A stretch of 64,000 bases of DNA, taken from an uncultured Ruminiclostridium sp. Its GTDB lineage: Bacteria; Bacillota; Clostridia; Oscillospirales; Ruminococcaceae. The translations under genes and the position numbers were made by a program. How positions within the stretch are numbered: the stretch's first letter is position 1; each line of letters starts with the position of its first letter. The notes below the pieces were generated by a model that was given only the letters and a program-made list of their open reading frames with translations, was not told the DNA's origin and did no database searches. Of this stretch, positions 22,917 through 46,298 are shown piece after piece. The stretch covers positions 1-64,000 of the forward strand of contig CANQXF010000013.1 in assembly GCA_947627695.1 (NCBI GenBank), written 5' to 3'.

Positions 22917-23040
22917 TTATTCACACTCGCTCCCAATAGCGCAATATTAAACATATTTGCTATAAGAGCTTAACGTGAGGTATTCATATTTTTTCACTAT
23001 TCAGAGAGCATGGGCTATCTGATTTTTTGTTGCCATAGTT
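22917..23040 (+). repeat. Candidate attachment site plus element-end repeat, copy A
   Basis: TTATTCACACTCGCTCCC at 22917-22934 resembles the guaA 3' end (TATTCCCACTC at 46287-46297) with one change, and the next ~115 bp match copy B at 30931-31056 almost base for base, ending in GGGCTATCTGATTTTTTGTT. TTGCCA repeats follow. Interpreted as one end of an integrated element. The gap 22867-23106 contains nothing else. Confidence 0.7.
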
Positions 23041-23106
23041 TTGCCAAGAGTTAGCGTGGATTACATGTAGAAAAACAAGAGTATGCCGTATGTTCAATCA
23101 ATTGAA

Positions 23107-24834
23107 TCAGAGTTCCATAAGTTGAGACTGGGTTTTCATAATAATCTTACCCTGTGGGGCAAATCTTTTACTTCCGTCAATGGCATCGGCAATCCGTTTA
23201 ATTCCGTCTTCATCTGCATTTATAAACAAAGATAAACGTTGAGTAGCTCTTGAGCATGCAACATATAATACTCTTTTCTTCTCCTCGTTGCTAAATGAAT
23301 TCTCGTCAATATCAGTAATAATTATTACCCTGCTTTCTAATCCCTTGAATTTAATTGCCGTAGTAAATAGAACTGCTGAATTACTTTGTTCACGCAAAAT
23401 CGGAATGCCTGATAACTTATAGACGCCGTTCAAAATAGAGTCTTCTTCTTTTTTGAGTGAGAGAATAACGATGTCACTATATGAATAGCCATTATTATCA
23501 TCAGTATAATATTTGATAAGTTTGCTCAGTTTCATTAACGGATCACCTTTGATAAAGCTTATACTGGTTTTGTCACCTTTTATCATAGCAATTTTGGGAC
23601 TTACTTCTACATCAATTATGTTATAAGAAGTAAGCGCAATTTCATAAGTATTACGACAATTTTTAGTCAGTACCAATTTACATTCAGAATCTTGTATCCA
23701 TTGTGGCACCTTCTGAGTTGTCAACAACTGATTTTTATCATAAAACACAAAAAAGTGTCCATCGACCAATTCACAATATTCTTTAAAATAAACTATTTCA
23801 TCATTATCAAAATCTTGTCCCTCGTCGATAATAACATCATCAAAGTTCAATTTATCCCAATCTATTGCCATAAGTGCTTGTGCTCTATCCTTTGGACTTG
23901 ACAAATCTCTCCAGTTGTCAGCATACTTTGATATAAATGTATGTATGTTGTAATAGGTTACATTTTCATATGGGTACATATGAGCTAAAAAACTGAACAG
24001 CATCCGATTGAAGCAAAGAAACAGAACTTTTCGACCTTCAGCGCCAAATCGTCTGGCTGCTTCCTTTGCAATCAGTGTCTTTCCTGTTCCTGCTACGCCT
24101 TGGATAGTCGAATTATTCTGTTCGGATATGTAATCAAGTAAACCCGTTTGCTCGTCTGTAAGCTTTAAAAAGGCTTTTTCAATAGCGCTTTTCTTTGCGC
24201 CGGGAGCTGTAATCAACTCGAAGTCTGCCGCAATCATATCTACGATTTTTTCAAATTCTTCATCGGTAATATTTACTTTCAGCTTTGTCCCATAGAATTC
24301 GAAAATATCGTAGATTGCTTGCTTACCTTTTGCAAAGGATTCATATCCAAGGACAGCTCCTGATACTTCCCTATATGCCATAGGAAAGCTCTTGATTTTG
24401 TCTTTAATCTCACATGAAGAAAACCACACTGCGGCTTCAATAGGGAATCGTGAATCAAGATCATCTGCAATATTTGAAATAGCACGACGGTAATGATATA
24501 TCCCGTCGATTGCCTGGGATAATGGATCATTGCGCTTTTTTTTATTTAAAATATGTACTTCTTGAGTTGCTTGGTTTTTCTGATAAAAAGCATAATCATG
24601 ATAAACAATGTCCCCGCCCTTTACTTCTAAAACAATCGCTCCTAATTTTCTATGAAGAATCAGAAAGTCGTTTTCTTTCCATGTGGTTTTCCACTTATTA
24701 TTTCGTTTCATCCATTGAACAGAGTGAAAGATAATATATCCATCATCAAGCTTTTCAAGAAACTCATATACTTCTCTTTCCGAAAAAGGAAGATCGGTTA
24801 TATCCTCTTTTTGAGGGTATATCATTGCACACAT
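23107..24834 (-). CDS. NERD nuclease-domain / UvrD-like DNA helicase
   Basis: 575 residues. The N-terminal third is a NERD (nuclease-related) domain with NDFLILHRKLGAIVLEVKGG (about 55-74), giving the D...ExK catalytic pattern. A superfamily 1 helicase follows: Walker A GVAGTGKT (246-253), Walker B IIDEGQDF, FKGLESRVII and VACSRATQRL motif VI. It starts at 24834 right after the upstream stop (TAATATG), with AAGGAG inside the upstream gene, so the pair is coupled. The combination of nuclease and helicase suggests DNA degradation, plausibly of invading DNA; this role is inferred from context. Confidence 0.85.
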   Translation of the reverse strand: MCAMIYPQKEDITDLPFSEREVYEFLEKLDDGYIIFHSVQWMKRNNKWKTTWKENDFLILHRKLGAIVLEVKGGDIVYHDYAFYQKNQATQEVHILNKKKRNDPLSQAIDGIYHYRRAISNIADDLDSRFPIEAAVWFSSCEIKDKIKSFPMAYREVSGAVLGYESFAKGKQAIYDIFEFYGTKLKVNITDEEFEKIVDMIAADFELITAPGAKKSAIEKAFLKLTDEQTGLLDYISEQNNSTIQGVAGTGKTLIAKEAARRFGAEGRKVLFLCFNRMLFSFLAHMYPYENVTYYNIHTFISKYADNWRDLSSPKDRAQALMAIDWDKLNFDDVIIDEGQDFDNDEIVYFKEYCELVDGHFFVFYDKNQLLTTQKVPQWIQDSECKLVLTKNCRNTYEIALTSYNIIDVEVSPKIAMIKGDKTSISFIKGDPLMKLSKLIKYYTDDNNGYSYSDIVILSLKKEEDSILNGVYKLSGIPILREQSNSAVLFTTAIKFKGLESRVIIITDIDENSFSNEEKKRVLYVACSRATQRLSLFINADEDGIKRIADAIDGSKRFAPQGKIIMKTQSQLMEL

Positions 24835-24835
24835 A

Positions 24836-27800
24836 TTACTTAAACTCCTTTGCAATCTGCTCATAGTCAATTTCCGCTATTCTGTAAGCTTGCCACCCCA
24901 TGGCAGCATAATTGCGCATTACGCTATCAGGAGTTTCGTGATCACAAATGAGGATATTTCTACTTGGCCACGACATAAGGATAAAATCACCAAGTGTAGA
25001 ATTTTTGATAATTGTTTCCAAGTATTCCGGCTTTGGCACACCACTTTCTTCTAACTTTTTAAGCAGGGAATGATCAGCGTCATCAAAGAAAGTGTAAATA
25101 TCTGCCCATCGATTGATTGCATTAGTCGTATAAGAGTGCTCCTTATCAATAGAACGGCGCATTTCTACCTTAAAAATGACCTCTTCATTTTTAACCAACA
25201 CGTCGTATCCCAGAAAATAGTTTTCAATATAATTCCATCGTTCTTCGTCAGTTTTTAATTCCATAAAGAATTTAGACAGAATGTCAACATCACGATTGTG
25301 CTTTTGCCGCGCCTTTGTAACATAGTTGTTGGAATAATTGATGTTTCCCAGGACAATGCCTTTAATCTTGTTGGGGTCATTCAAACGGATAAAGATTTCC
25401 GGCTCCTCACCTCCCATAATTTCATAAGTGATATATCCAAAAACAGACAAAAGCTTTAACGATAAAGCGGACCCTTCGTCGCTTGCAAGGCTCATATAAG
25501 CGGAGAACGATGCCTTCTGAATGCCGGAAAAATCGCTAATAATTTTAGATTTTGTAATAGGCTTGCGCATAAGCTCTTTAAAATTACCGTTTGCAAGGTA
25601 GTATTGTGTGCGACCAATTACATCATTTGTTCTACGTTTTACGCAGATAGAATTGGAATCAACAAGATCAAAGAGAGAATTAGCAATCACTCGTGCTTTT
25701 GTCCTTCCATATCTTTTACTAATCAGTCTTTCAAAATCGTCAATAGTAAAATACTGATTCCGATAGTTATCATAAAGACTATTTGCAATGAATTCAAAGT
25801 CTTCTAGGATCTTATTACGGATATCTCCAAGCAAGTAATCCTCGCTGGCTTCAACGGAAACTTTTTGACGCGGAAAAATGAAATCACGAATTCCGGGCAT
25901 TATTTCTATATTGTTGTGAACAGCTGCTTGCTTGTTAAAGTACCAATACTTAAATTGCGGGAAAGAAATATTAGGGTGGAATTCTTCCCAGATTCGTTTT
26001 AAATCTACAGAATAAATATCCCCCATGTCACTTAAAGACGAGCCGTCTTTCTGCGGCTCATTATACCGCCCCTTCTGTACATATGTAAAGCATCCACCAA
26101 ATCTGGAGTTCAATACATCTTGCGAATGTTCTCGATGAATAACCACATAAGCTTTAGTAAATACGCTCTGCGGACGAGAAATGAGAACCTTATAGTTGTA
26201 CTTATCATAAAGGTCCTTTTCAAGCATAAGCAAACATGTTTTTAGCTGATTGATACAGGAAGAATCATCACGACCAAAAATATATGTGAATGATTCGGGC
26301 GAGATCAAAAAGTTCCTCGCATATCCCTTATTCTTGTAAGTTTCATATATTCCTTCAAGGACCTTTTTGATCTGGTATTGCTTAATTTGGGACATGCCAA
26401 ACAGGATTTTCATAAACATAAGGTCATTGTAATAGAAATCTGTAATTGCATATCCTGTCATAGATTCCTTACGGGAAGCTCGACCAATTTCCTGTACATA
26501 GTCGCACAAATTCCCGGTTGCCGCATAATGATATACATTTTTTATATCATCCACATCGACGCCCATGCCGAATGCTTTTGTTGCATACATTACGGGCATG
26601 ATGCCTTTCCTGAATTTTTCAAAAGTCTCCTGCTTTTGCGCATTAAAATACTCGGCGCTTTGCTCGTTGATATTTCTGCCGGTATATGTTCCGATGCTGT
26701 CACTCATAGTTATACCGGCAAAGCTGCGCAGCCCCTTCTTTGCATCACCGGCTAGTTTAGCAAAAGGAAAATATACAATTGTCTTTTCCCTTTTTTCAAT
26801 CCATTGCTGTAAACGGGCATTCAGGTCGACAGTTTTCGCCGCTTCATATTCCGACTTAGGTCTTTTTGAAGTGGATTTAACATTGATCTCAAATTTTATG
26901 TCGGTGCGTTTGGTATATCCAATGTATTTTATGGGATTTTCCATATAAAGGCTTGTTATTGTCTCGCCCACAGAATCATCCGCACCGCCATTTATTGCAG
27001 TTGCCGTAAATGCACAGATAGGAAAATGATATGTCTTTCTTTTGATGCCGCGACTTGTTTGAATATTATGGCGCAACTGGTTAATATATCCTCCCAAATA
27101 CCAATAATCGGGTCTAAAACCAATACCCCAAGTTGTAACAATATGGGCTTCGTCTACAATAAGCAAACCGATTTCACGTTCGCCGATAATTGTTTCAATC
27201 GAATAGGAAAGTAACGTTTCAGGACTTAAATACAGTAAATCAACTTCTCCTTCTTTTATTCTCTTTAAAACTGCCTCTTTTTCTACCTGTGTAATCAAGT
27301 CGGAGTTAAACGCTTCAACGCGGGTGTATCCGCTTTTAATTAACTTTTCTTTTTGATCTTGCATCAGTGCTTTTACAGGCTCTATAATAATTGTAAGCTT
27401 ATTATATTTTTTTGCAAGATATACAGCAGGAATCTGGAACATAACAGACTTACCTGCACCCGTGGAAGCAGTGATAAAGATATCGCGAAAAGTTTTTCCT
27501 TTTTCATCTGCATACGAATTTTCAGCTTGACATATGATATCTCTAATAATTCTGCCCTGGGAAATATAAACAACTTCTTTGTCAATATCCGGGCTCTTGT
27601 AAAACGGAATAGATCTAAATTCTTTAAATCCGTCTATACCGATATCATCTTGAGCTATTTTTAACAGTTCAGCTTCTTGATCCGAATCTTCCGCAAGCTG
27701 TTCATAATATTTAGACGCCCTGATCTTGTGATATTGACAATATGCGAGCAAAGAATTAAGAATTCTATTGGAAACCTCACCATCTGTCGTTTGAATGCCA

Positions 27801-28405
27801 AGCGTTTTCGGCATAATTTTATCAAGATCGGATAAGTCTCTAAGATATGTTTCAACATCCTCATTCAAATAGATATGAAATTCGACATCAGAAGTGTCCT
27901 CATATAGACGACCTACAGGATAGAAATCACTCACAGTAATCTTCTCGTTTTTTTCGTACTCATAGTTGAAAAAGCTACCATAATACTGACCATCAATGAG
28001 GATTAACGCATTATACACAGAAAGAAATCTAGTGCAATCATCGCTGAGACTACCCTGCTCTTGTCCATCAAGACTACGTTCAATTTCTTCGGCAATGTCT
28101 TCCGAAATCGTAATTTCAAGAGGATAATAGTCAGGAAATAGGTTATTTCTGTAAATTACAACTTCTAAGCCATCTTCCTCTACTGCCTCATCAACTCTGG
28201 TTTTAATAAGAGTATACTCTTGGTATGTAATCCAAACAACATCAGAATCCTCCATATCAAGCAATTCTCTTTCGAGAGCCTTGCGATAGTTCTTTTGGAA
28301 AGACAGGACATCGACCTTTGCAGCAATGTCGCCTTCCACGAGAGGAGTTCCACCCAATTGCTCTAAAAAAGATATATCAAAGCCTTTATATACGATCAGT
28401 TTCAT
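24836..28405 (-). CDS. Large RecQ-like DEAH helicase with unknown N-terminal domain
   Basis: 1189 residues. About 300 N-terminal residues match nothing I know. The helicase core has Walker A STGAGKS (about 314-320), DEAH (418-421), AFTATA, and motif VI QEIGRASRK (about 638-646), the last being RecQ-like. Some 540 further residues follow, with no clear RQC zinc-binding cysteines or HRDC domain. I start at the ATG at 28405 after AAGGTGG; the frame opens with a GTG inside that site. Strong promoter at 28448-28476. Operon partner is the NERD helicase. Likely a defence helicase; I cannot match it to a named system. Confidence 0.82.
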   Translation of the reverse strand: MKLIVYKGFDISFLEQLGGTPLVEGDIAAKVDVLSFQKNYRKALERELLDMEDSDVVWITYQEYTLIKTRVDEAVEEDGLEVVIYRNNLFPDYYPLEITISEDIAEEIERSLDGQEQGSLSDDCTRFLSVYNALILIDGQYYGSFFNYEYEKNEKITVSDFYPVGRLYEDTSDVEFHIYLNEDVETYLRDLSDLDKIMPKTLGIQTTDGEVSNRILNSLLAYCQYHKIRASKYYEQLAEDSDQEAELLKIAQDDIGIDGFKEFRSIPFYKSPDIDKEVVYISQGRIIRDIICQAENSYADEKGKTFRDIFITASTGAGKSVMFQIPAVYLAKKYNKLTIIIEPVKALMQDQKEKLIKSGYTRVEAFNSDLITQVEKEAVLKRIKEGEVDLLYLSPETLLSYSIETIIGEREIGLLIVDEAHIVTTWGIGFRPDYWYLGGYINQLRHNIQTSRGIKRKTYHFPICAFTATAINGGADDSVGETITSLYMENPIKYIGYTKRTDIKFEINVKSTSKRPKSEYEAAKTVDLNARLQQWIEKREKTIVYFPFAKLAGDAKKGLRSFAGITMSDSIGTYTGRNINEQSAEYFNAQKQETFEKFRKGIMPVMYATKAFGMGVDVDDIKNVYHYAATGNLCDYVQEIGRASRKESMTGYAITDFYYNDLMFMKILFGMSQIKQYQIKKVLEGIYETYKNKGYARNFLISPESFTYIFGRDDSSCINQLKTCLLMLEKDLYDKYNYKVLISRPQSVFTKAYVVIHREHSQDVLNSRFGGCFTYVQKGRYNEPQKDGSSLSDMGDIYSVDLKRIWEEFHPNISFPQFKYWYFNKQAAVHNNIEIMPGIRDFIFPRQKVSVEASEDYLLGDIRNKILEDFEFIANSLYDNYRNQYFTIDDFERLISKRYGRTKARVIANSLFDLVDSNSICVKRRTNDVIGRTQYYLANGNFKELMRKPITKSKIISDFSGIQKASFSAYMSLASDEGSALSLKLLSVFGYITYEIMGGEEPEIFIRLNDPNKIKGIVLGNINYSNNYVTKARQKHNRDVDILSKFFMELKTDEERWNYIENYFLGYDVLVKNEEVIFKVEMRRSIDKEHSYTTNAINRWADIYTFFDDADHSLLKKLEESGVPKPEYLETIIKNSTLGDFILMSWPSRNILICDHETPDSVMRNYAAMGWQAYRIAEIDYEQIAKEFK

Positions 28406-28447
28406 TATATTTCCCACCTTTTGATAATTTTCTCTATTATATAAAAA

Positions 28448-28476
28448 ATTATAGCATATATCGGGAAAAATAGCAA
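28448..28476 (-). promoter_or_regulatory. Sigma-A promoter of the RecQ-like/NERD operon
   Basis: TTGCTA, 17-bp spacer, TATAAT on the minus strand, 43 bases before the start. Confidence 0.75.
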
Positions 28477-28554: not shown

Positions 28555-28925
28555 AGTTCGGAGACTTTGTCCTTGCCTATCACCCTTTTGATTTTTCTAA
28601 CCTTTTGCTGTCCTCTTGCAGTCCGACATTCTCTTTCAGCAGTTTCCTGTTATGCTCTTTCACACGCGCATAACTGTTATCTTGCACCGAGAAAGCCGTT
28701 CGTTCCCGAAATCATATCAAACTTGTCATCAGCTTGATGCTTGCGGGTATGATGAACAAGTATCAGGCAAATGCCATACGCACCTGCAAACTGTTTGAGC
28801 CTCGCTATAATCTGATAGTCGCTCGCATAGCTGTACGTCTCCTTACTCTCATCGCGGACTTTTTGGAGCGTGTCTATAATGATCAACTTGGTGTCCTTGT
28901 GTTCTTTTACAATCTTTCGCAAAAT
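28555..28925 (-). pseudogene. Relic of a mobilisation module: repA fragment joined to mob 3' fragment
   Basis: Reading the minus strand, 28925 to about 28685 encodes a stretch nearly identical to the middle of the RepA-like ATPase at 43338-44453 (DTKLIIIDTLQKVRDESKET and onwards). At about 28684 it runs directly into a segment matching the MobV C-terminus (DNSYARV.EHNRKLLKEN). The parental order repA-mob is kept, so an internal deletion in a second copy of that element explains it. Stops and missing ends make it non-functional. The remainder of 28418-28554 shows only the promoter. Confidence 0.85.
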
Positions 28926-29040: not shown

Positions 29041-30801
29041 TTATACGACATCATCTGATTTTAAAAAAACCTTTAATCTATTATCTATTTTTTCCCAATC
29101 TTCTTCATCAAATGATTCTTCAATCCACTGCAAAATTATTTCATAATTATTATCGGATTTAAAAAGGTTGGAGAAACTTGTTATTTTTAATTGTTCTTTT
29201 CTTGCTTCATAAAATCGTTTAATCTGCCGAATTATCTGTTCAAACAAACTATGTAACAGCTTTTCTCTGTCATCTTCCTCATAATTGGAAATCAATAGTC
29301 CGTCAATATTATCTTTATGCAATTTTTCGTCTTCGTAATCGCTAATTATTTTAAACTTCTTCTTATAAAAATACAGCACGGTTGCCAATACGACGTATTT
29401 TCCGTTTTTTACAATAGAGATCCAGTCTAAATCATTTTTGTGATTGCCATTATTCAACATATTGCTATAATCATCATATATGCTTGCTAATTTTACTAAG
29501 TCATATAACGTATTATAGTCATGCTTTCTCATATATATCATTTTATATACTATCGGAGAAGAAAATAACGAATCTTTTTTACTGCGTGCAGAGCCTGGAT
29601 TTTGTAAAATGCAAGAATATATAAGCTGACCGATGTATTCATTCGACACACGAAATTCTTTTGAAACTTTATTATTGTTTAAAGGTTGAACGCCTCGTTT
29701 TATGCTTACGGCTAAACAATACCTGCCATTATTTGCACAATCTCTTTGCAGTTTGATTTGCTCGCGAGTATTAGATTTTAAATCACGTGGTTTAATAGGT
29801 TTTTGCGAGTTGGATGCTTCCGAAATTCTAAAAATAAACTGCTGTTTTTTATCAGCATCTAACGAACTATCAGATCTCACTATTTTACAAACAACGTCAA
29901 AATCATTATCTTCATTTATTATTTTTGACTCGCCTATTTTGGTTGTAGTTTGAGCTCCGTTAATTATTGAAAAACCATACAATCTGATTTTATATCCATC
30001 AATATCAAAATCATCACACCCTATGGTAATGCCATTATTTAAAAACCAAAATAAATCCTTTTCCTTTTTTATTGTGTTTTCAATTGCATCATCAACATTC
30101 TTCTGAGTTATATGTTCACGGATATTATAATTAAACAATCCATTTTGTCTGTACTTTTCATAAAGCCGTTTTATCGATGAGGCTTTAGCATTAACAATCA
30201 ATCCGTTTTCTCCATACGAAAGAAAATTATTTTTTTCTGATAAACTGATTTTTATGCTGTCCTCTTCAATTTTTTCATTTGTATAAGTAAGCTTTTCTAT
30301 CTCCTCGCTGTCATATATTGATAAATTAAAACTACTGAATTCATCCCTCTCAAAATAGTCGTATAATTTAGTTCTCATACTTTCAGTCAGTTGTGTATTC
30401 GTAAACAAAACCAATTCGATATTTTTATCATCATTTAAATTATCATACGCATTCAAGTATGCAGAAACCAACTTATCAGAATAATCGTCATACTTTCTTT
30501 CAGTAAAATTGCTTACGGTTTCAATTATTTTGTGATAAATGTTTTTTATATCTTCAAGACTTAATGAATCTGAAGATTTACCCTGTATTAAATATAATGT
30601 GTCCGAATCACTATAAATAAAATCTATTCCTCCGTCACGTGTTCCGTCAACAAACCCTGTTTTAATATCAATTTTTCCAATATTTCCATGATAAAAAAAC
30701 AAATCAACCGCTTGTAAAGTGAATAGATATTCATCGCTTGTTCTGCCTTCTGAAATACCAATGTCCTTACACATTGACCTTATATTATCCATATTTACCA
30801 T
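29041..30801 (-). CDS. AIPR-family (abortive infection phage resistance) protein
   Basis: 586 residues. The middle carries the AIPR hallmarks RLYEKYRQNGLFNYNIREH, WFLNNGITI and INGAQTTT (about 210-285). The N-terminus (about 50-76) has DGGID followed by LIQGK, the D...QxK pattern of PD-(D/E)XK-type restriction folds. AIPR proteins are linked to abortive-infection phage resistance; the mechanism here is not established. GGAGG seven bases upstream supports the start. Single gene with its own terminator, markedly AT-rich compared with the core genes. Confidence 0.85.
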   Translation of the reverse strand: MVNMDNIRSMCKDIGISEGRTSDEYLFTLQAVDLFFYHGNIGKIDIKTGFVDGTRDGGIDFIYSDSDTLYLIQGKSSDSLSLEDIKNIYHKIIETVSNFTERKYDDYSDKLVSAYLNAYDNLNDDKNIELVLFTNTQLTESMRTKLYDYFERDEFSSFNLSIYDSEEIEKLTYTNEKIEEDSIKISLSEKNNFLSYGENGLIVNAKASSIKRLYEKYRQNGLFNYNIREHITQKNVDDAIENTIKKEKDLFWFLNNGITIGCDDFDIDGYKIRLYGFSIINGAQTTTKIGESKIINEDNDFDVVCKIVRSDSSLDADKKQQFIFRISEASNSQKPIKPRDLKSNTREQIKLQRDCANNGRYCLAVSIKRGVQPLNNNKVSKEFRVSNEYIGQLIYSCILQNPGSARSKKDSLFSSPIVYKMIYMRKHDYNTLYDLVKLASIYDDYSNMLNNGNHKNDLDWISIVKNGKYVVLATVLYFYKKKFKIISDYEDEKLHKDNIDGLLISNYEEDDREKLLHSLFEQIIRQIKRFYEARKEQLKITSFSNLFKSDNNYEIILQWIEESFDEEDWEKIDNRLKVFLKSDDVV

Positions 30802-30930
30802 ATAACGTCCTCCGTTTTTTATTGATATAACAATTCTTAAAATAGTTGGGTTATAACATTAAAACATTATCAATAATAATTCACATATCCAACAATTTGT
30901 TTTGTGAATAAGGGTAGGAAAATAATTTTA

Positions 30931-31056
30931 TTATTCCCACTCGCTCCCGATAGCACGATATTAAACATATTTGCTATAGGAGCTTAGCACAAGGTATTTA
31001 TATTTTTTCCATTATTCAGAGAGCATGGGCTATCTGATTTTTTGTTGCCAAAATGT
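30931..31056 (+). repeat. Candidate attachment site plus element-end repeat, copy B
   Basis: TATTCCCACTC at 30932-30942 is identical to the guaA 3' end at 46287-46297; on the minus strand it reads GAG TGG GAA TAA, encoding EWE-stop just as guaA ends EWE-stop. The following ~115 bp match copy A (22917-23040). TGTTGCCA/TGTTGCCA direct repeats at the far end could be arm-type integrase sites. Confidence 0.75.
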
Positions 31057-31112
31057 TGCCAATGAACATTTCAAGTCACACAATCCAATTTCTACCATTA
31101 CTTAAAAATACA

Positions 31113-33092: not shown

Positions 33093-33288
33093 TCACTCCC
33101 ACTCGTCACAAACAAAACAATTCTGCTTAGAAAATATGTGCGGACGTATCCCTTTCCTTTTGATAATTCTTATTCGCTGTATTATTCTGCCTGTATCGGC
33201 GGTTGTTATCAATTTGTTATCGAGGTTGATAACGGGAGTCGTTGCATTGTGGATATGGCGCGCATTGTGGGAATAATATTATTAAATC
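33093..33288 (-). pseudogene. Gene remnant ending in an EWE-stop, possible attachment site
   Basis: An open minus-strand frame of 65 codons without a start, ending CDEWE-stop. The terminal bases (TCCCACTC on plus, 33097-33104) share the guaA att core, but the flanking repeat of copies A and B is absent. The coding-like residues (TADTGRIIQRIRIIKRKG) are not a family I recognise. The surrounding gap 32946-33786 holds only this, a short ORF and another remnant. Confidence 0.45.
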
Positions 33289-36368: not shown

Positions 36369-36574
36369 TGTTGTATTCACCTCTTGCTATCTATGATTTG
36401 TTTATTATATTCTCATTATATAAATCGTTATAAAAATAACGTTTTATTTTCCTTACTTCCTAAACACAAGTGTTCATGAGCAATGAGCAATAAATTATAC
36501 CTCACGCTGTTTGTTTTCTGATATCCCGTTATCTTACACGGTTATGCTGTTTCTTTATTATGATTTATTTCAAC

Positions 36575-36736
36575 TTAAATCCGGCATTCTCCAGAATCTT
36601 CAACCTCAAAGCTCACCAGTGTCGTACAGTTCTTTTGGCGTATGTCACTCATAGGAATCAAGCAACGCTTGCATTTTTCAAAAAGTGATAACGCTACTCG
36701 ACGATAGACCGCATTTGCATAAGAAAAACTTTGACC
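36575..36736 (-). pseudogene. Short gene remnant upstream of the reverse transcriptase
   Basis: An open frame of 53 residues without ATG, ending FEVEDSGECRI, with protein-like composition (FEKCKRC, SFEVED). Family unknown. It lies in the 637-bp gap 36369-37005, of which 36369-36574 shows no gene and could hold an RT-associated non-coding RNA or only the RT promoter. Confidence 0.35.
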
Positions 36737-36891
36737 TTAAAACATGGCAGATTTTTAGAGATTTTTCGCTACACTAAATTATATCTGTGTATGATGGGTG
36801 GGCGTAGATTAAATCTGTTGATTCGTTGCTAAATATAAATCCGATGACATTATGAATATTATGATCTGTTTTACTAATTGCAATTAACAAA

Positions 36892-37000
36892 TCTTACTCC
36901 TCAATGAGATTGTATTAAAATATAATCTCTATAAGAATTTGATATGAGGTGTTTATATTTTTCTGTTATGCTGAAAGCATAGGATGTATGATTTTTGTCA
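36892..37000 (+). repeat. Diverged copy C of the element-end repeat
   Basis: CTTACTCCTCAATGAGA, then TATTAAAATATAATCTCTATAAG, AGGTGTTTATATTTTT and GGATGTATGATTTTTGTCA align in order with copies A and B. The core is degenerate: on the minus strand it reads ATT GAG GAG TAA (IEE-stop) against guaA IEWE-stop. It separates the RT module from the restriction module. Confidence 0.5.
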
Positions 37001-37005
37001 TAAAG

Positions 37006-37329
37006 TCAATCGCCTTGGATCTTTAATCCTTGCACAATTATCTTTAACGGCATTGTGCTGATTTTTTGTCCTGACAATTCGTGAAAGTGTCGATTTAGAT
37101 CATTGGCTCGAATTATAAGTAATTCGTTAATGGCGGCATCACTTAATTGCAATACTCGTTCTTTGCCTAAGAAATTCGCAAAATAAAGACGCAGATTGTT
37201 TATATTATCACTGTTACGATCCATCCATATAATTTCATCTCTGATTTTTTTCATTTCGATTTGAATATAGTAATTGTAAATTTCTATACCCTTGTCCACA
37301 AAGTCCAATCTATTACTCAGCTTATTCAT
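37006..37329 (-). CDS. Hypothetical protein at the end of the restriction-modification operon
   Basis: 107 residues, helical and charged, no recognised family. AGAGG seven bases upstream supports translation. It is 77 bases after the HpaII-like endonuclease frame and probably on the same transcript. Confidence 0.6.
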   Translation of the reverse strand: MNKLSNRLDFVDKGIEIYNYYIQIEMKKIRDEIIWMDRNSDNINNLRLYFANFLGKERVLQLSDAAINELLIIRANDLNRHFHELSGQKISTMPLKIIVQGLKIQGD

Positions 37330-37406: not shown

Positions 37407-38481
37407 TTACTTTACAAACCTAATCTGCACGTTGAGTTTAAGCCGCTGTTCGCCGTTTTCTTCGTAAATTTTACCAAAGCCGTGTTTGCTTTGGCTCGGA
37501 GTATCAAATCTTGTAGCGGCGAAAATGTAGTTTTTGAACTCGTTGCGGTTGTAGATATGATAGCATACCACATCACCGTCCTCTTTGACGATTATAAAGC
37601 CGCCCGTTGCCTCATAATCGCCTGTCCAGAGCGTATTTGGAACCATTCCGAGCGCGATATTGGTCAACATTTCCTTGACATTGTGAGCGCAATATACGGC
37701 ATTGTTCTTGGTGGACACAATTCCGCTGTTTGCGGCCATAGCCGTAAGTTCGGAAATTGAGTGTGATTTGCCCTGATAATAGTATTTTATCATCTCTGCA
37801 AGCAGTTCGGGCATTTCTGCCGTTACCATTTTGAGGTTAAATTCGAGCGTTTCATTTTCTGTTGTGTAGAAACTTATGTCTGCACCGAGCAATTTCAGAT
37901 AATCAAACTTATCTTTGAACTTCTTAAATCCGTTGAAAGTTTCAATTTCCTTATCGCTCAAATTTTTTGCCGTCAATCCGATATATAAAATTCGTCGCTC
38001 CCGATGCGTTGAAAAGAGTAGACGGGCTGCCGAGCTGCGACTTTATGCTGAACCCGAAAGTATCGTCTCTTCCGGACATAATATCGTGAACCATAAGCCG
38101 AATATCAGACTTGTCAGAGGATTTTGCTTTCAACGAGCTGCATTTGACAGATTCGGCAAAACTCCACACATCGGGCAGTTCAAAAGCGCCTTTTCCGCAC
38201 TTGTTTTCTTTTATCCCGACAAGCAGATTGTTTGCCTGCTTGATAAACGCGTTTATCGGAATGCTGCAAATCTCCTCACCGCTTTCTGCGGATATGACCT
38301 TGATTTGCGCGGAACGGTGATATTCAAAAGTTCCCGTTGCTTGAGTACGAATTATTTTTATAATGTCATAGTATATATTCGGAATTCTGTTTGTGTCGGC
38401 ATCGGCGGCATACAGCTTTCCGTCTGCCAACAGCTTAAACAGTGTATAAAGCTCGCTCCATTCGCCTACGTTACCGGTCAT
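37407..38481 (-). pseudogene. HpaII-like type II restriction endonuclease, frameshifted
   Basis: Two overlapping frames together encode about 357 residues, the length of R.HpaII. The first (from 38481) begins with GNVGEWSELYTLFKLLADGK, a match to the HpaII N-terminus as I know it; the second ends at 37407 with LKLNVQIRFVK. They meet at a run of six T (37963-37968; A6 in the gene): with five A the frame would read FIYRIDGKNLSDKEIE without a break. So one extra base splits it. Expected to cut CCGG if restored. Consequences: inactive enzyme, phase variation, slippage during transcription, or an assembly error. Confidence 0.8.
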
Positions 38482-38495
38482 GTTTTGCCCCTTTC

Positions 38496-39371
38496 TTATA
38501 TCTTTTTAAAATATTCCTCATCAATCTCATAATCTTTTATTTCTCTAACACCTATACCGAATTGAGCCAGCTTTGTGATAAAATCTTCTCCGTCAATTAA
38601 ATCAATCTGCTGCTTACCCGGGTTAGATGCCTCTTCAACAGCTTGTTTTGAAAAAGAGCCGGTGGTAATGAACACACCCTTTTCAATATCGGTCGTCAGA
38701 GACCCTCTGAAATCTCTTATTTCGGGTGCGCCGACGGTTCCTTGATACCGTTTACATTGAAACGCTATATTGAAGCTGAAAATGCCGTTAATTTTCAGCT
38801 TGCCGGAGCCATCAATACCTCCGTCGCCCGATTTTTTGGTAACACGAACATCATCAAAGCCGCATTCTCTAAGTAACCTTTGAGTTAATCTTTCAAATGC
38901 GTAAGGATCCATTTCCAATAGAACTTTATAAAGTTTTTTCCTCCACGGTCTCACTTCTTCGGGAACATCAATACCCGCCGCTTCCATTTGAGCCTCTTGA
39001 CCATTATCTCCTTTGGATTGATTTGTTGCGGCATTTTCGTTTTTACGATAGTTTTGGCTAATATAAGTTCCATCAACTGTTTCTATATTTGAAAAAGCAG
39101 TTGTAATAGACCAAACGCTTCTTGCGCTATTTTCAATTGCTCCATAATTTTTCAACAAGGTTCTTGCCCAAGCCAGTCTATAATTGATTTCCGACATACT
39201 GCTACTGCCTTGATGAGGAATTGAGCATACATCATCAGACAAATGCAGTAATTCTGCTGCTTTGTCATTGATTTCGTTGTTTTTGCCCGACCCACCGAGT
39301 AACTTAAGCGCAGCATAAGTTACTTCCACCAATTTGGAATAATCGGGAATTTTAAAATTATCGGATTTCAT
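38496..39371 (-). CDS. Mrr-like restriction endonuclease
   Basis: 291 residues. N-terminal winged-helix domain (about 1-95) and C-terminal Mrr_cat domain: SGDGGIDG and FQCKRYQG give the D...QxK active site (about 183-213). Mrr enzymes typically cut methylated or modified DNA, which would conflict with the adjacent methylases unless the specificity differs, so it may act as a conventional restriction subunit here. Starts five bases after the upstream methylase. Confidence 0.88.
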   Translation of the reverse strand: MKSDNFKIPDYSKLVEVTYAALKLLGGSGKNNEINDKAAELLHLSDDVCSIPHQGSSSMSEINYRLAWARTLLKNYGAIENSARSVWSITTAFSNIETVDGTYISQNYRKNENAATNQSKGDNGQEAQMEAAGIDVPEEVRPWRKKLYKVLLEMDPYAFERLTQRLLRECGFDDVRVTKKSGDGGIDGSGKLKINGIFSFNIAFQCKRYQGTVGAPEIRDFRGSLTTDIEKGVFITTGSFSKQAVEEASNPGKQQIDLIDGEDFITKLAQFGIGVREIKDYEIDEEYFKKI

Positions 39372-39376
39372 AGTGT

Positions 39377-40516
39377 TTACCTCCCATAATTGTTATTGAT
39401 TTGAACTAAGCATTCTTTCATAAAACCCGCCATAACCTCCACTGCGGGGATAGTCACGGCGTTTCCGAACTGCTTATATTTCGGACCGTCGGCAAGTCCG
39501 TCCGGGAAACTGAATTTGTCCTCGCCCGTCTTTTTGTCAACAAAAGCGTAGTTGATAAACCCTTGCAATTTGCCCCATTCGCGAGGCGTCATAGCACGAA
39601 TACCCTTGTTGTTAAGCGGAGTTTGCTTTGAGGGCAGCACCTTGCCCGCAACCCCCTCTTTAGGGTCAATAACAAGATTGCGCTCTTTTCCCGAACCGCC
39701 CGTTGCAAGAATAGCATTGGAAACAGGGTGTTCGATTTCCGGAAGATTAACAATTCTGTAACCGAAACCGTTTCCCTTTCCCTCGTGACGTGCCTTGTGA
39801 CGTTCGAGCGTTTCCACATATCCCGACGACAGAAAATACTTATCTTCGGCATTCATTTCAAGCAGGTCGTTCAAATCGGCATAAATCAGATTTTTGCGCT
39901 CCGTGGGGAGCTTATTCGGCAGATTATCGACAGAATTTCCGAAAAGTTTTCTGTCAAATCCCATTATATAAACGCGCGGGCGATTTTGGGGAACGCCGAA
40001 GTTGCGGGAGTTTCTCACGAAATCTCTCGCATTATATTCAAGTTCTCCGTCTTGGTTTTCGGTCACTCCGATTACTTTATAATGCAAATCCTTTACCAGA
40101 ACTTCAATAATTGTCGCAAATGTATGACCTTTATCATGGGTGATAAGATTGTCCACATTTTCAAGCATAAACGCTTTCGGGCGGGTTCGCCTGATGATTT
40201 CGGCTATCTCAAAAAACAGCGTTCCGCGTATTTTGTCGGCAAAGCCCTCTTTCTTTCCCGCGCGGCTGAACGATTGGCACGGAAATCCCGCGAGGAGAAT
40301 GTCATAATCGGTTTTCTCAACCTTGACTTTAAATTCTTCGGTTGTAATGTCATTATACGGGTCGTCTTTGTCCTTAAACAGATGTCTGTATGTATTGCAG
40401 GCATTCTTGTCAATCTCGGCTGAAAGAACATTCTTAAAACCGCCGGCAAGTTCAAACCCCCGACGTATGCCGCCTATGCCCGCGCATAAATCAATCATCT
40501 TGTACACTTTGCTCAT
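39377..40516 (-). CDS. DNA (cytosine-5-) methyltransferase, M.HpaII-like
   Basis: 379 residues. Motif I IDLCAGIGGIRRGF, motif IV GFPCQSFS with catalytic Cys, motif VI MLENV, motif VIII QNRPRVYI, and motif X QFGNAVTIPA. The region before the target-recognition domain (ETLERHKARHEGKGNGFGY) and KGIRAMTPREWGKLQGF closely resemble M.HpaII as I recall it, so CCGG is the predicted target and this is the likely partner of the HpaII-like endonuclease downstream. Confidence 0.92.
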   Translation of the reverse strand: MSKVYKMIDLCAGIGGIRRGFELAGGFKNVLSAEIDKNACNTYRHLFKDKDDPYNDITTEEFKVKVEKTDYDILLAGFPCQSFSRAGKKEGFADKIRGTLFFEIAEIIRRTRPKAFMLENVDNLITHDKGHTFATIIEVLVKDLHYKVIGVTENQDGELEYNARDFVRNSRNFGVPQNRPRVYIMGFDRKLFGNSVDNLPNKLPTERKNLIYADLNDLLEMNAEDKYFLSSGYVETLERHKARHEGKGNGFGYRIVNLPEIEHPVSNAILATGGSGKERNLVIDPKEGVAGKVLPSKQTPLNNKGIRAMTPREWGKLQGFINYAFVDKKTGEDKFSFPDGLADGPKYKQFGNAVTIPAVEVMAGFMKECLVQINNNYGR

Positions 40517-40526
40517 CGTTGTTACC

Positions 40527-41471
40527 TCAAAAGCAGCTGCGGATATTGTCCGCTATTCTTTTCACAACCGGAACGCAGACCGTATTCCCGCATTGCTTGT
40601 ATGCTTGTTCAATCGGAATATCTTTAAACCCGAAATCGGGTGGGAAACCTTGTAACGCCAGACATTCTAACGGTGTGATTTTCCTTATCCCGTAGTTATC
40701 TCTTATTACGGGAACTCTGTCCGGGTATGTCCCCATATTCGCTTTAAGCGTAGGCGAGATAACGTACTTCCTCATTGCAACACCGCTGTCGTCTATACGA
40801 TACATACCGGTTGTATCGGGTATTCTCTTGTTAAGCAAATCAAAATATTTGCTTGTAGGTTTGTAGTAGAAATAGTCATGCTGTCTTACCGAGTGGTCGA
40901 ACACACTGCTCAAATTGCAGGTAAGCGGCATCTCACCCGGGAACGAGAATTTGCTCATCATATCGTAATCCGAGAACGCAGCTATAAAAGTTCTGTTCCT
41001 TTCCTGCGGAATGTTTGCGTGAGTATGCGGACTCTGAACCGTATATTTGACAAAGTATCCGATTTTGGAAAGGCAATTAAATATAGTAAGAAAAGTCCGC
41101 CCGTTGTCGTGGTTAATCAGATTTCGGACATTTTCAAGGAAGATAACTTTCGGCTTGATATGTTCGGCTATTGCGATTATTTCAAAGAACAGGTTGCCCC
41201 TTGCGTCATTAAATCCTCGTTGATACCCCATAACCGAAAAACTTTGGCAGGGGAAACCCGCAACTATCACATCGGCTTTCGGAACGGAGCTTTTGTCAAC
41301 TCCTCTTATATAGTCTTCGACAAGGCAATTTTGCGGGAAATTGTGCCTGTAAGTAACGCAGGCAAATCGGTCAAGCTCGTTAGCCCAAACCACCTCAAAC
41401 CCCGCCTGCTCAAAAGCAAGGTCAATGCCGCCTATGCCCGAAAACAGGCTTACTACCGTAGGCTTATCCAT
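40527..41471 (-). CDS. DNA (cytosine-5-) methyltransferase, second copy
   Basis: 314 residues. Motif I SLFSGIGGIDLAF, motif IV GFPCQSFSV, motif VI FLENVRN, motif VIII QERNRTF, motif X QCGNTVCVPVV. Start taken at 41471, where ATGGATAA overlaps the vsr stop. Sequence differs considerably from the neighbouring methylase, so it probably has another target; a separate endonuclease for it is not obvious, apart from the Mrr-like gene. Confidence 0.92.
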   Translation of the reverse strand: MDKPTVVSLFSGIGGIDLAFEQAGFEVVWANELDRFACVTYRHNFPQNCLVEDYIRGVDKSSVPKADVIVAGFPCQSFSVMGYQRGFNDARGNLFFEIIAIAEHIKPKVIFLENVRNLINHDNGRTFLTIFNCLSKIGYFVKYTVQSPHTHANIPQERNRTFIAAFSDYDMMSKFSFPGEMPLTCNLSSVFDHSVRQHDYFYYKPTSKYFDLLNKRIPDTTGMYRIDDSGVAMRKYVISPTLKANMGTYPDRVPVIRDNYGIRKITPLECLALQGFPPDFGFKDIPIEQAYKQCGNTVCVPVVKRIADNIRSCF

Positions 41472-41877
41472 TTCGTACCGCCGTTTCAACAGCATCGGCG
41501 CACTCGGATAGATGTTTCTTTATGTCATTTCCCCAAAAGCGAAACACCGTCCACCCTTGGCTTTCAAGCGTTTCGGTAACCTCTTTGTCACGCTCCATAT
41601 TGCGCTCGATTTTCGGTATCCAGAACTCTCGGCGAGATTTGAAATCGTTCTTGCGTTCTTCCCAGTTGTAGCCGTGCCAAAACTCGCTGTCACAGAACAC
41701 CACCACCTTTTTGCCGAGGAAAACAATATCGGGTTTTCCGCAGATGCCGTTTACGTTTTTGCGATAACGCAAGCCTCGCGCCCAAAGCTCTTTCATCAGC
41801 ATAACCTCAATCTTTGAGCCTTTGTTTTTGCAGGCTTGCATATTACGCTTTATCTGTTCGGGAGTTCTCTTGTCCAT
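41464..41877 (-). CDS. vsr: Very short patch repair endonuclease
   Basis: 137 residues. Nicks next to T:G mismatches left by deamination of 5-methylcytosine. Seen: RKNVNGICGKPDIVF with the catalytic Asp, VVVFCDSEFWHGY (in place of the more usual DGCFWHGC) and RDKEVTETLESQGWTVFRFW. First gene of the restriction-modification operon and coupled to the methylase start. Vsr genes commonly accompany C5 methylases, including HpaII-type systems. Confidence 0.92.
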   Translation of the reverse strand: MDKRTPEQIKRNMQACKNKGSKIEVMLMKELWARGLRYRKNVNGICGKPDIVFLGKKVVVFCDSEFWHGYNWEERKNDFKSRREFWIPKIERNMERDKEVTETLESQGWTVFRFWGNDIKKHLSECADAVETAVRNG

Positions 41878-42011: not shown

Positions 42012-43148
42012 TTAATGTATCAGCTCTCTTTTTTCATTTTGGAGTATCTCCGCAACCCTATCTTCCCCTATCGCCAGCTTTATTTTTTCCAACTTCCTGC
42101 TTTCCTCCCTCAACTCCACATTCTCCTTCAGCAGCTTTCTGTTATGCTCCGTCACTCGCGCATAACTGTTATCTTTCGCGTCGAATCTTGCCTGCAAATC
42201 GTGGTTCTCGGCGCGCAAGTCAAGCAGCGAATGATACAGCGACTTTATGAGTTTGACTGCTTTTTCAAGTGCAGGCTTTGCCTTCTTCTCACGGTATGAT
42301 TTTGCGGATTCCAGCACGCCCGCTTCGGGCAAAATCTCATCTACATCTTCGGGAAAATCACGCGCCAACTTCTCTGCGTTTTTCAGCTTCGGCACAGTCT
42401 GATTCAACTGCTTTTCAACCGCTTTCAAGTACGTTTTTGCTGACTCAATCTCGGCATTAAGCTGCTCCACCTCCTCGGCGCGCTGTTTCTTCTCGAAGTC
42501 CAAAACCGAGAGGTGCTTTTCGTGTGTACCTTTCTGCTCCCATTCAATCCCATGCCGCTCCATGACCTCCGCGAGAGCCTCCTTTTCAGCCTGCACCCAT
42601 TGATTCCACTCGGTCATACCGCGAGTGCCGCCTTTGAATCCGAGAGCAGCCAATGCCTGTTTTAGTGACACCCTCGTATCAAGACCCCGTTTGCTGCCAG
42701 TTGTGAATGGAATAAAGTCAATGTGCAAATGCGGTGTAGCTTCGTCCATATGCAGGTGAGCCGAGAACACCCGCAGGCTCGGATTGCGCTCTTGCAAATT
42801 CTTAAAATAATCATCAAGTATGGTTTTTGCAAGCTCGCCGTTCTCAGTCGTGGCTCCCATATTATCCTTGTCGCCTATTTGAAGTATCAGCTCGTGAAAA
42901 GGTTTCTCCTGCTTGCCTGATCTGATTTTTTCATAGTAGTCGGAGATTTTTCTGTCCTCTCGAGCCTGCTTGGCATTGTACCGATCTAACGCGCTATCAA
43001 ACAATTCATGATAAACTTCCTTGATATTTTCATTGCAGTAGTCAATGTTCAAATGCGACCTCTCGCCATCCACGTTCGCAGCCTTGAATTTTCGACTGTT
43101 GTGATTGACTGAGCCTTTGCCCACCATCGCGCTGATCGTTCTTTTCAT
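42012..43148 (-). CDS. mobV: MobV-family (Mob/Pre) relaxase
   Basis: 378 residues. Nicks oriT and covalently holds the 5' end for conjugative mobilisation. Seen: HNSR near 16-19, and the HxH...DEATPHLH metal/active-site cluster at 131-142; long coiled coil from about 215 to the end. The N-terminal layout and size fit MobV of small Gram-positive mobilisable plasmids/elements. The candidate oriT lies immediately upstream. Confidence 0.9.
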   Translation of the reverse strand: MKRTISAMVGKGSVNHNSRKFKAANVDGERSHLNIDYCNENIKEVYHELFDSALDRYNAKQAREDRKISDYYEKIRSGKQEKPFHELILQIGDKDNMGATTENGELAKTILDDYFKNLQERNPSLRVFSAHLHMDEATPHLHIDFIPFTTGSKRGLDTRVSLKQALAALGFKGGTRGMTEWNQWVQAEKEALAEVMERHGIEWEQKGTHEKHLSVLDFEKKQRAEEVEQLNAEIESAKTYLKAVEKQLNQTVPKLKNAEKLARDFPEDVDEILPEAGVLESAKSYREKKAKPALEKAVKLIKSLYHSLLDLRAENHDLQARFDAKDNSYARVTEHNRKLLKENVELREESRKLEKIKLAIGEDRVAEILQNEKRELIH

Positions 43149-43337: not shown

Positions 43338-44453
43338 TTATTTCAGCTCAAGCGAAATCAGCTTGCTTTTGTGTGTGCGCCACGACGAGTACAAAATTTT
43401 GTACTCTTGCAGCAGCCGTCCCGCATTGACATTCAGCTTCATACTAAGCGCGTTCGGCTGGATTTCCACGCCCAAAAACGCCACTAACTCCGTCGGCGTG
43501 CCTTGCCAAGTCGGGCAGTCGGGCGTGATTTTTTTCGAGATGATTTCAAGCAGCGGCTCGGGCGGTTCCTGCTACAAATCCGTCTCCGCGCGGTCGAGCT
43601 CCCAAGTCAAATTTTCCTGATTTCGCGTAAGGTAAAATTTTTGGTCTTGCTGATCTCTGCCCGAAATTTCAAGTATCGCCGTGTTTGCCGTGCGCTTTTC
43701 TTTATGCAAGACGAACGCACCGTCAGCCGCGCCGAGCAGACCGTTCGTTCCCGAAATCATGTCAAACTTGTCGTCAGCTTGCTGCTTTCGGGTATGGTGG
43801 ACGAGCATAAGGCAGATCCCGTAGGCTCCCGCAAATTGCTTTAGCCGAGCAATGATTTGATAGTCGCTTGCATAGCTGTACGTCTCCTTACTCTCATCGC
43901 GGACTTTTTGGAGCGTGTCGATAATGATCAACTTGGTGTCCTTGTATTCTTTTGTGAATTTACGGAGCTGGTTCTCCAAGCCGCCGTTGACGCTGTTTGC
44001 AACGGTGGAAAAGTGCAGATTGTCTGTGCTGTCTGTGCCGAACATACGGTAGAAGCGGCTTTGCAGGCGGGCGTAATCATCTTCGAGCGCGAGGTACAGC
44101 ACCGTCGCAGGCTTCACCTCAAAATTCCACATCGGCGTACCCGTGCTGACATGGTAGGCGAGCTGCGCCATAAGAAAGCTCTTGCCCACCTTCGGCGCGC
44201 CGACGAAAAGATACACGCCCGCATAAAGCAAGCCATCGATGATCGGCGGGTTTGTGGTGAAAACTCGGTCGTAAAGCTCAGGCATAGACATAGTTTTGAG
44301 ATAGTATGGGTCGAGTTCATTGAAAGGGTCATAAAATTCCGCTGAGAACTTGACTTCACCGTCTAAATCTGTTAAAATATTATTGTGCTTATTTGACTGC
44401 CCCGCGTCCGCACCAACGGACGAGTTCGGGGCAGTTATTTTTGTTTCTGTCAT
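43338..44453 (-). CDS. RepA-like hexameric-helicase ATPase, interrupted by an in-frame TAG
   Basis: The frame from ATG 44453 encodes 293 residues to a TAG at 43572-43574, but continues open in the same frame for 77 codons to TAA at 43338, with protein-like sequence (LLEIISKKITPDCPTWQGTP, ending LISLELK). The full product would be 371 residues, with TGG (Trp) the likely ancestral codon. RecA-fold: Walker A GAPKVGKS (85-92), LALEDD, Walker B IIIDTLQ, HHTRK. Replication/mobilisation helicase of the element. Its start overlaps the stop of a decayed upstream gene. Confidence 0.8.
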
Positions 44454-44770: not shown

Positions 44771-44779
44771 TCAAAAAGA

Positions 44780-44925: not shown

Positions 44926-45855
44926 TTAATGGATGTGTAGCTTCTCTTTGCATTTTTCTGCTTGAACAAGCGGGTATGCTATTTCCGACTCATAACCAGC
45001 TCTTTTTAAATCCTCGATAATCTCACACCATAAATTATAAGCTTCGGAATATAGCCCAAGTTCATCATAATAGGCAGCTTTCGACAATTTCGCATCCCTA
45101 AGTGTACCATCCAGCTTCAGAGCCTGATCCCAATGTTGAAACGCTTCCTCTGTGCGACCCAGCTTCCTGCAGGCATCACCACCGAAAACGAAAAGCATCG
45201 CTTCCTCAGGGAAGTGCTGTGCAGCTTGCAAAAACCAGTCATAAGCCGCCTGAGCATCATTATTATAAAGATATGCAGCAACTAACAATATCCATTCTTG
45301 TGAATTTGCTGTACCTGTTTCAATAGCATCCAGTTGTTCGCGTATTGTTTCGTCACCACGGCCAATTCTGCTAAGGAAGTATGCCTTTTGCCGACGAGCT
45401 TTCCAGAGCGTTATACTATCACTGAGACGACGTGCATATTCGATGCTCTCGTCAAATAGCGTCACGGCCCGGAGAATGCAATGAATAGCCATGTACTGGT
45501 GTAGAATGCCCTCCATGCGAAGATCATTCGGTGTTTCATTGCCGGAATGACGAAGCTTTTCAAACTCAGAAACAGCTGTAGCAAAATCATCTGGGTTCCG
45601 GCTTTCCGAGAACATGGCAGTTAACCGTTGCGCATAATTGTCATAGGCGGAAGGCCGCTGCCGAAAGAGATCGTCAACGGTTACGCCATAGAGTCGTGCC
45701 AATTCCGGAAGCAGCATGATGTCAGGCATCGTTTTACCGCACTCCCACCGAGAAACGGATTTTGCGCTTACACCCAGCCGTAGGGCCGCTTGCTCTTGCG
45801 TCAGCTTTTTGTCAGCACGCAAGCGGCGCAGGTTGTCTATAAAAATATGATTCAT
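44926..45855 (-). CDS. XRE-family transcriptional regulator with TPR-like C-terminus
   Basis: 309 residues. N-terminal Cro/CI-type helix-turn-helix (about 3-58; LTQEQAALRLGVSAKSVSRW), followed by about 240 residues of helical repeats with TPR-like spacing. Start at 45855, preceded by AAAGGAG; the frame extends 17 codons further without a ribosome site. May control the element or respond to a peptide (Rgg/PlcR-like layout), which is inference. No secreted peptide gene is evident beside it. Confidence 0.82.
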   Translation of the reverse strand: MNHIFIDNLRRLRADKKLTQEQAALRLGVSAKSVSRWECGKTMPDIMLLPELARLYGVTVDDLFRQRPSAYDNYAQRLTAMFSESRNPDDFATAVSEFEKLRHSGNETPNDLRMEGILHQYMAIHCILRAVTLFDESIEYARRLSDSITLWKARRQKAYFLSRIGRGDETIREQLDAIETGTANSQEWILLVAAYLYNNDAQAAYDWFLQAAQHFPEEAMLFVFGGDACRKLGRTEEAFQHWDQALKLDGTLRDAKLSKAAYYDELGLYSEAYNLWCEIIEDLKRAGYESEIAYPLVQAEKCKEKLHIH

Positions 45856-45897
45856 TGGCGTACTCCTTTGCAGACTTGTATTACAGAACTTGCATTT

Positions 45898-45926
45898 ATA
45901 ATACACCGGGCAAAGAGAAATGTCTA
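45898..45926 (-). promoter_or_regulatory. Sigma-A promoter of the XRE/TPR gene
   Basis: TAGACA, 17-bp spacer, TATTAT on the minus strand, 43 bases before the start. Upstream, 45927-46205 holds no recognisable gene. Confidence 0.6.
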
Positions 45927-46205: not shown

Positions 46206-46226
46206 TTTGTACTCAATTTATACTCA
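46206..46226 (+). repeat. Direct repeats near the guaA junction (possible integrase arm sites)
   Basis: TTTGTACTCA and TTTATACTCA follow each other 11 bases apart, about 60-80 bases from the guaA att core. Spacing and position suit arm-type sites of a tyrosine recombinase, though none is encoded here. Confidence 0.35.
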
Positions 46227-46239
46227 TAAAGATATATGT

Positions 46240-46278
46240 AACCCCGTAAAGTTGTATAAATAGCGGCTTTACGGGGTT
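46240..46278 (-). terminator. Hairpin after guaA
   Basis: AACCCCGTAAAG / CTTTACGGGGTT, 15-base loop, ending eight bases from the guaA stop. T-run is weak on the minus strand. Confidence 0.65.
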
Positions 46279-46285
46279 GTTCTTT

Positions 46286-46298
46286 CTATTCCCACTCA
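46286..46298 (-). other. guaA 3'-end attachment site (island right junction)
   Basis: The last codons of guaA (GAG TGG GAA TAG) contain the 11-base core TATTCCCACTC (plus strand 46287-46297), which is identical at 30932-30942 and near-identical at 22918-22928. guaA 3' ends are a known integration hotspot for genomic islands. Confidence 0.7.

Follow-up and report, generated by a model that had tools for sequence, protein, structure and literature searches.

We analysed a stretch of DNA from an uncultured Ruminiclostridium sp. (contig CANQXF010000013.1, positions 1-64,000; hereafter the window), in which the interval between a galE-like epimerase gene and guaA, the GMP synthase gene, carries a row of predicted defence systems. 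All coordinates below are window positions, and all features listed with them lie on the minus strand. The host is presumably a gut bacterium, judging from the animal-gut isolate names that many of its closest named relatives bear. guaA (46286..47845; Pfam GMP_synt_C 3e-43, GATase 1e-41) ends in GAGTGGGAATAG, and its 3′ end (46286-46297) forms the proximal copy of a short core sequence. The other flank is the epimerase gene (20765..21769; GDP_Man_Dehyd 4e-59, Epimerase 6e-56), whose orthologue in the genome of a sister species, G068, is 99% identical and lies on the same contig as guaA. The first-pass annotation had described the interval as a chain of four separate cargo blocks. The chain of separate blocks stood up, but their number is probably five: going away from guaA, a RepA-Mob-restriction-modification unit, a Drt4 reverse transcriptase unit, an OLD-like unit, a unit with an AIPR protein and two helicases, and a T5orf172 unit. 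Their G+C content ranges from 0.30 to 0.44, differing from one unit to another, against 0.50-0.52 in the flanks. As argued below, the interval is very probably a tandem accretion array of tyrosine-integrase elements of the integrative mobilizable element (IME) or cis-mobilizable element (CIME) type, now decayed and devoid of integrase.

The cargo assignments made at first pass (helicases with AIPR; OLD; reverse transcriptase with zinc ribbon; restriction-modification with mob/rep) were borne out by Pfam and PADLOC. PADLOC matches occur in all five units, the defence function being predicted from family models. In unit 1, an HTH-TPR protein (44926..45906; HTH_3 4.6e-13), at the position taken by the integrase in relatives, is followed by a RepA-like AAA_25 ATPase (43572..44453; 2.4e-30), a Mob_Pre (MobV-type) relaxase (42012..43148; 2e-23), and a cargo (37407..41877) of Vsr, two C5 DNA methylases, Mrr and an HpaII-type nuclease, matched by Pfam and by PADLOC as type II and type IV restriction. 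The nuclease gene (37407-38481) is split into two overlapping frames covering profile positions 1-171 and 171-359, and is thus disrupted unless the assembly is in error here. Unit 2 comprises a remnant of a DNA methyltransferase C terminus (36445..36683), a Drt4-type reverse transcriptase (34800..36380; PADLOC 6.8e-201) and a zinc-ribbon protein (33787..34635; Zn_Ribbon_1 9e-15). The remnant was considered as an RNA accompanying the reverse transcriptase, a reading rejected since it matches, at 70-74%, the coding ends of intact methyltransferase genes in G064, G032 and G001; an Rfam search over 20000-48000 gave no match. Unit 3 is an OLD-like ATPase-TOPRIM protein (31113..32945; OLD-like_TOPRIM 1e-15, PADLOC GajA/Old models). 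Unit 4 holds an AIPR/AbiU-like protein (29041..30801; AIPR 2.3e-27, AbiU 1.3e-32), fused scraps of mob and repA (28587..28922; DNA identity 79% to window 42079-42175 and 87% to 43729-43953), a DEAD/RecQ-like helicase (24836..28417; DEAD 1.5e-21, PADLOC C3a193 1.5e-160) and a NERD-domain helicase (23107..24870; NERD 2.4e-9, PADLOC RTasNERD-Hel 9.3e-53). Unit 5 is a T5orf172 protein (22177..22866; T5orf172 2.1e-14, PADLOC PDC-S57 1.1e-56).

The array had first been proposed from an 11-base core at the guaA stop codon, TATTCCCACTC, which is indeed present exactly at 46287-46297 and 30932-30942, and with one mismatch at 22918-22928. By itself, this 11-mer is not significant, as the window contains 19 matches at up to two mismatches where 14.6 are expected; it was therefore dropped as evidence in its own right, and longer features and related genomes were used as the test. 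The cores at 30.9 and 22.9 kb proved to be the tips of repeats of about 132 bp that are 88-92% alike, and that form the right ends of units 3 (30923..31068, core 30931-30942) and 4 (22908..23056, core 22917-22928 with one change). Near 33.1 kb, where only a weaker copy had been noted, positions 33093-33104 are a full core of the variant GAGTGGGAGTGA, which is the guaA ending of G068 and G067, at the right end of unit 2 (33093..33223). The copy noted at 36893-36903 has decayed as a core, but it sits inside a recognisable right end, that of unit 1 (36879..37006), which is 80% identical over 84 bp to a right end in G068. The copies had also been read as gene ends; this holds for their codons, whereas the internal copies lie in noncoding DNA after the last gene of each unit.

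Related genomes (G0xx; the window's own genome is G000) were surveyed through their guaA loci (Lxxx), of which an anchor pattern placed 86 of 98, the remaining 12 being without the pattern. Among 79 distinct loci with 575,695 bases of downstream sequence, the strict core GAGTGGGARTRR is found 13 times on the strand of guaA and is absent from the opposite strand. One thousand permuted patterns gave a mean of 0.22 and a maximum of 5 matches. Upstream of guaA (734,844 bases, redundant loci included), there is a single match, on the opposite strand. Two of the 13 cores are the window's own and one, in L095, ends a guaA paralogue, leaving ten as independent support. The L095 core was dropped as an attachment (att) site: it belongs to a separate gene that lies about 1.3 kb after guaA, resembles the C-terminal part of GuaA and has the same EWE-stop codons at its end.

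Short repeats adjacent to the core are the binding sites of tyrosine integrases that have an arm-binding domain, and two tested integrases of the relatives carry Pfam Arm-DNA-bind_4. We scored arm repeats as two 9-mers with a period of about 11 nt, counting matches out of 9. When wide ranges were searched, before the positions were known, arms scoring at least 8/9 followed guaA in 34 of the 79 loci (chance 5.3%); among secondary cores, i.e., cores downstream of guaA, 10 of 13 were preceded by them (chance 4.1%). Narrow ranges, chosen after the wide search had revealed the positions, gave arms of that score at +66 to +71 from the guaA core in 33 distinct loci, out of 70 that had sufficient sequence (chance 0.19%). 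With the score lowered to at least 7/9, arms preceded 12 of the 14 secondary cores (chance 1.75%), in 11 cases at -119 to -123; these 14 are the strict cores minus that of L095, plus a relaxed core in G001 and the window core at 22.9 kb with its one mismatch.

Three cores of the window and its guaA end follow this geometry. Relative to the minus-strand cores at 33104, 30942 and 22928, arms lie at -119, -120 and -119, i.e., at 33204-33223 for unit 2 (TCGATAACAAATTGATAACA, 8/9), at 31043-31062 for unit 3 (9/9), and at the equivalent distance for unit 4. The 33.1-kb core is thus well supported. At the left end of unit 1, next to guaA (46207..46286), a hairpin (46240-46278) is followed by arm repeats at 46207-46226 (TGAGTATAAATTGAGTAC, 8/9), +71 from the core. 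The hairpin was also considered as the native guaA terminator, which would place the start of the array away from the core; this was rejected in view of the arm repeat at +71 and of the different hairpins that several relatives have of their own.

A right-end profile was built from 22908-23056, 30923-31068, 36879-37006 and one G068 copy, so that these match by construction (E 9e-26 for the unit 1 end). Outside this building set, the profile detected a decayed right end without a core directly after the T5orf172 stop codon (about 22111-22176; E 5e-4), assigned to unit 5. It also found right ends 9-18 kb downstream of guaA in G002 (E 3e-11), L144 (4e-11) and G001 (7e-11), and on contigs without a visible guaA in G029 (3e-17) and G031 (4e-6). 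Partial or weak matches in L060, L061, L110 and L073 (E 4e-4 to 0.065) were left out of this count. Searches of plasmids with the right-end repeat, and of viral contigs for an exact part of this repeat, gave no match.

Comparison with G068, where galE and guaA are found in the same order on one contig, tested whether boundaries coincide with the predicted cores. The G068 flanks are about 95% identical to window 14128-21889 and 46280-50874, and a piece at 21918-22032 matches at 87%. In the interval enclosed by these flanks, a single long block is shared, window 22917-28907, which holds the helicase half of unit 4 and is 95.7% identical; shorter matches are right ends, mob/repA pieces and the left-end hairpin. 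Distally, homology of this block ends at the unit 4 core, as the first-pass annotation had anticipated for unit boundaries. Beyond that core, the window continues into T5orf172 and galE, whereas G068 continues into an old left-end hairpin, 79% like window 46216-46297 next to guaA, and then metE, metF and a LysR gene. An old left end at this place is as expected if a unit had entered between guaA and a left end that was there before. The block is next to guaA in G068, with no strict core in between, but belongs to the fourth unit in the window. Its proximal edge differs between the two genomes, homology breaking inside the repA remnant, which indicates that cargo has also been exchanged inside units. 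In G067, the segment equivalent to window 46290-50133, including guaA, is inverted; guaA, with left arms at +68, is then followed by an island with Mrr and a serine recombinase. The inverted segment spans about 3.8 kb (G067:C3:151473-155316; L049, L150), inverted relative to both the window and G068, and the island is now on the other side.

A family of tyrosine integrases, about 50% identical among aligned members, is encoded within 2.7 kb of guaA in 19 of the 79 distinct loci. Where more than 3.5 kb of downstream sequence was available (n = 46), an integrase was present in 11 of 18 loci with left arms versus 4 of 28 without. One candidate, in L064/L116, turned out to be a melibiase; it was left out of the 19 loci and of the vestige search, and its sequence remained in the integrase search profile. 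Across 71 genomes of the genus, a single-member query detected the family in 15 at E 1e-40, and none in G000, G001, G067 or G068 at that threshold. The best G000 match has 26% identity, and none of the 18 Phage_integrase matches of that genome is on the window's contig; a distant integrase may nevertheless act on the window sites. A 10.4-kb element in G032 (L059), bounded by the guaA core on one side and by a core with perfect arms on the other, encodes an integrase, RepA, Mob, a C5 methylase, an Eco47II-type nuclease and a TIR/SEFIR protein. In unit 1, RepA, Mob, methylases and nuclease come in that order too, but there is no integrase; the G032 element is an intact relative of unit 1. In L056 (G061), two integrases of the family are in tandem, 0.13 and 14.4 kb beyond guaA, and a core with arms separates them; elements that carry an integrase themselves thus accrete as well.

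The following scenario can account for these observations. Elements with tyrosine integrases like those of the relatives, IMEs or related to them, would have inserted again and again at a core, about 8-12 bp long, formed by the last codons and stop codon of guaA. Each integration would have renewed the end of guaA and displaced earlier elements outward. At their far side, units retain a right end, in which a pair of arm repeats with an 11-nt period precedes the core by about 120 bp, and a left end with arms at +71 lies after guaA. Loss of the integrases, of the internal left ends and of most transfer genes would have come later, rep and mob being kept in unit 1 and as a fused scrap in unit 4. 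What remains is mostly predicted antiphage cargo, about one system per unit, and selection for defence may be the reason why it persisted. The chain of cargo units proposed at first pass is thus supported by boundaries at cores, cores on the same strand and fixed arm distances.

Several observations weigh against this scenario. No integrase was found in the array using Pfam, and no vestige of one was detected in the interval (best E 0.48). Internal left arms were not found in the window, while some tandem loci of relatives appear, as read from their sequence, to have them. The right end at 36.9 kb has neither an intact core nor arms, and that at 22.1 kb lacks a core. Among the relatives, two of the 14 secondary cores, those of L061 and the relaxed G001 core, are without arms, and four loci have a nearby integrase without left arms at the tested score. 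An empty galE-guaA interval, which the first-pass annotation had suggested looking for, was not found, all three comparable genomes (G000, G068, G067), one for each species, being occupied. As for L061 (G020), its strict core lies about 2.17 kb after guaA with no arm repeats at the usual distance, and could belong to another type of integrase or be a decayed end.

That short core matches simply accumulated by chance in a defence-rich region would fit the numbers for the 11-mer alone, but the strand bias, the arm spacing and the G068 boundary in our view refute this explanation, whose probability is close to nil. Alternatively, homologous or illegitimate recombination might have assembled an ordinary defence island, in which the right-end repeats would have been copied along with neighbouring genes and would not be attachment sites. 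The swap of cargo inside unit 4 and the 88-92% likeness of the 22.9- and 30.9-kb repeats are compatible with such a history. Nevertheless, we regard it as very unlikely, because the 33.1-kb right end has the same geometry with an arm sequence other than that at 30.9 kb, an argument against duplication of a single end, and because that geometry recurs beside guaA in other species together with integrases.

A further alternative is that the units are still mobile, as integrase-less cassettes with working ends, which guaA-type integrases brought in by other elements would move in trans, the site serving as a platform for defence-gene cassettes. The intact right ends of units 2 and 3, the presence of half of unit 4 at 95.7% identity in another species at a different position in the row, and G001, where a core with arms follows guaA by only 1.7 kb on one contig in a genome without an integrase of the family, all favour it. 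On the other hand, internal left arms are missing in the window, so that most units could hardly be excised singly now, even if an integrase were supplied; several ends are decayed; G000 has no integrase of the family; and the mid-gene loss of part of unit 4 is unlike an exchange of cassettes. We thus consider continuing mobility of the units rather improbable. In its broader form, the guaA 3′ end would be a cassette platform throughout this bacterial group, with small integrase-free arm-plus-core defence modules captured, shuffled and exchanged between species by visiting guaA integrases, a tyrosine-integrase parallel to integron cassettes; this, too, we hold to be unlikely. Integron cassette arrays are defined by an IntI integrase and attC sites. 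Here, no Pfam integrase was found in the interval and the ends are arm-plus-core sites, attC not having been modelled.

The decayed accretion array that we favour shares features with CIME arrays. Retained att sites are found in tandem, with arms at 33.1, 30.9 and 22.9 kb and a left end at guaA, the internal left sites being without arms; there is no tyrosine integrase in the interval and most transfer genes appear to have been lost. Unit 1 has a relaxase but no integrase of its own, and as it still has Mob, it is better described as a partly decayed IME than as a CIME.

The locus therefore belongs to a known kind, with guaA targeting and tandem accretion both described; it is a new member, with ends that are unusually clear and a cargo that is mostly defensive. 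That guaA 3′ ends are an island target, as stated at first pass, is in print for ATE-1, the IncP island and GIsul2 (PMC5704250), and for ICE_SmiB6_guaA (PMC4701971). Those elements share the tyrosine integrase target at the guaA 3′ end, the streptococcal repeats holding just the exact 3′ end; unlike the window units, they are single, bear an integrase and carry other cargo, and the likeness considered here is that of the described target (PMC5704250, PMC4701971). Accretion of decayed elements is described in streptococci, where IME/CIME tandems at the 3′ ends of housekeeping genes have likewise lost integration and transfer genes and kept att sites; these tandems are mostly at rpsI, rpmG and rplL, whereas the window has about five units at guaA, mostly defence cargo and no integrase left (PMC5704250, PMC5357655). 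Dehalococcoides ssrA islands are also in tandem and marked by gene 3′-end repeats, 15 of 31 being without an integration module, but they involve a Ccr-type serine recombinase, the ssrA target and reductive dehalogenase cargo (PMC3146451). Defence islands at chromosomal hotspots similarly cluster defence systems at a fixed place, whereas most systems in the window are bounded by their own att-like end (PMC10121019). Accretion of elements inside Tn7-like cargo takes place in a different setting (PMC8649781). We found no defence array at guaA in the literature, in a search that left most subscription journals outside.

If the accretion reading is correct, the measurable boundaries show how a defence island can grow by successive site-specific insertions at an essential gene's end. 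The constant arm spacing, +66 to +71 from the guaA core and about -120 from the far one, is also a simple rule for dividing such islands in other genomes into units, even integrase-less ones.

Cargo at guaA in the relatives is mixed: 4 of 10 proteins match PADLOC at 1e-5 (type I restriction-modification, Argonaute-like, PrimPol-helicase, and a methyltransferase match that is ParB by Pfam), and 6 of 10 do not. A defence bias is therefore demonstrated for the window alone. When 71 genomes of the genus were searched with the DNA of units 2 and 3 and of the AIPR portion of unit 4, no second placement of the Drt4, OLD or AIPR modules was revealed; the matches were confined to the methyltransferase remnant (G064, G032, G001), right-end repeats and the zinc-ribbon gene (G053). 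In G053 (G053:C148:71-1060, L177), the zinc-ribbon gene, at 77% identity, follows a 443-amino-acid gene of a conserved pair, a partner missing in the window. Finally, separate genes resembling the C-terminal part of GuaA are also present in G031:C141 and G027:C89, each with a guaA-type integrase nearby, and in these genomes the paralogue may be a second integrase target.

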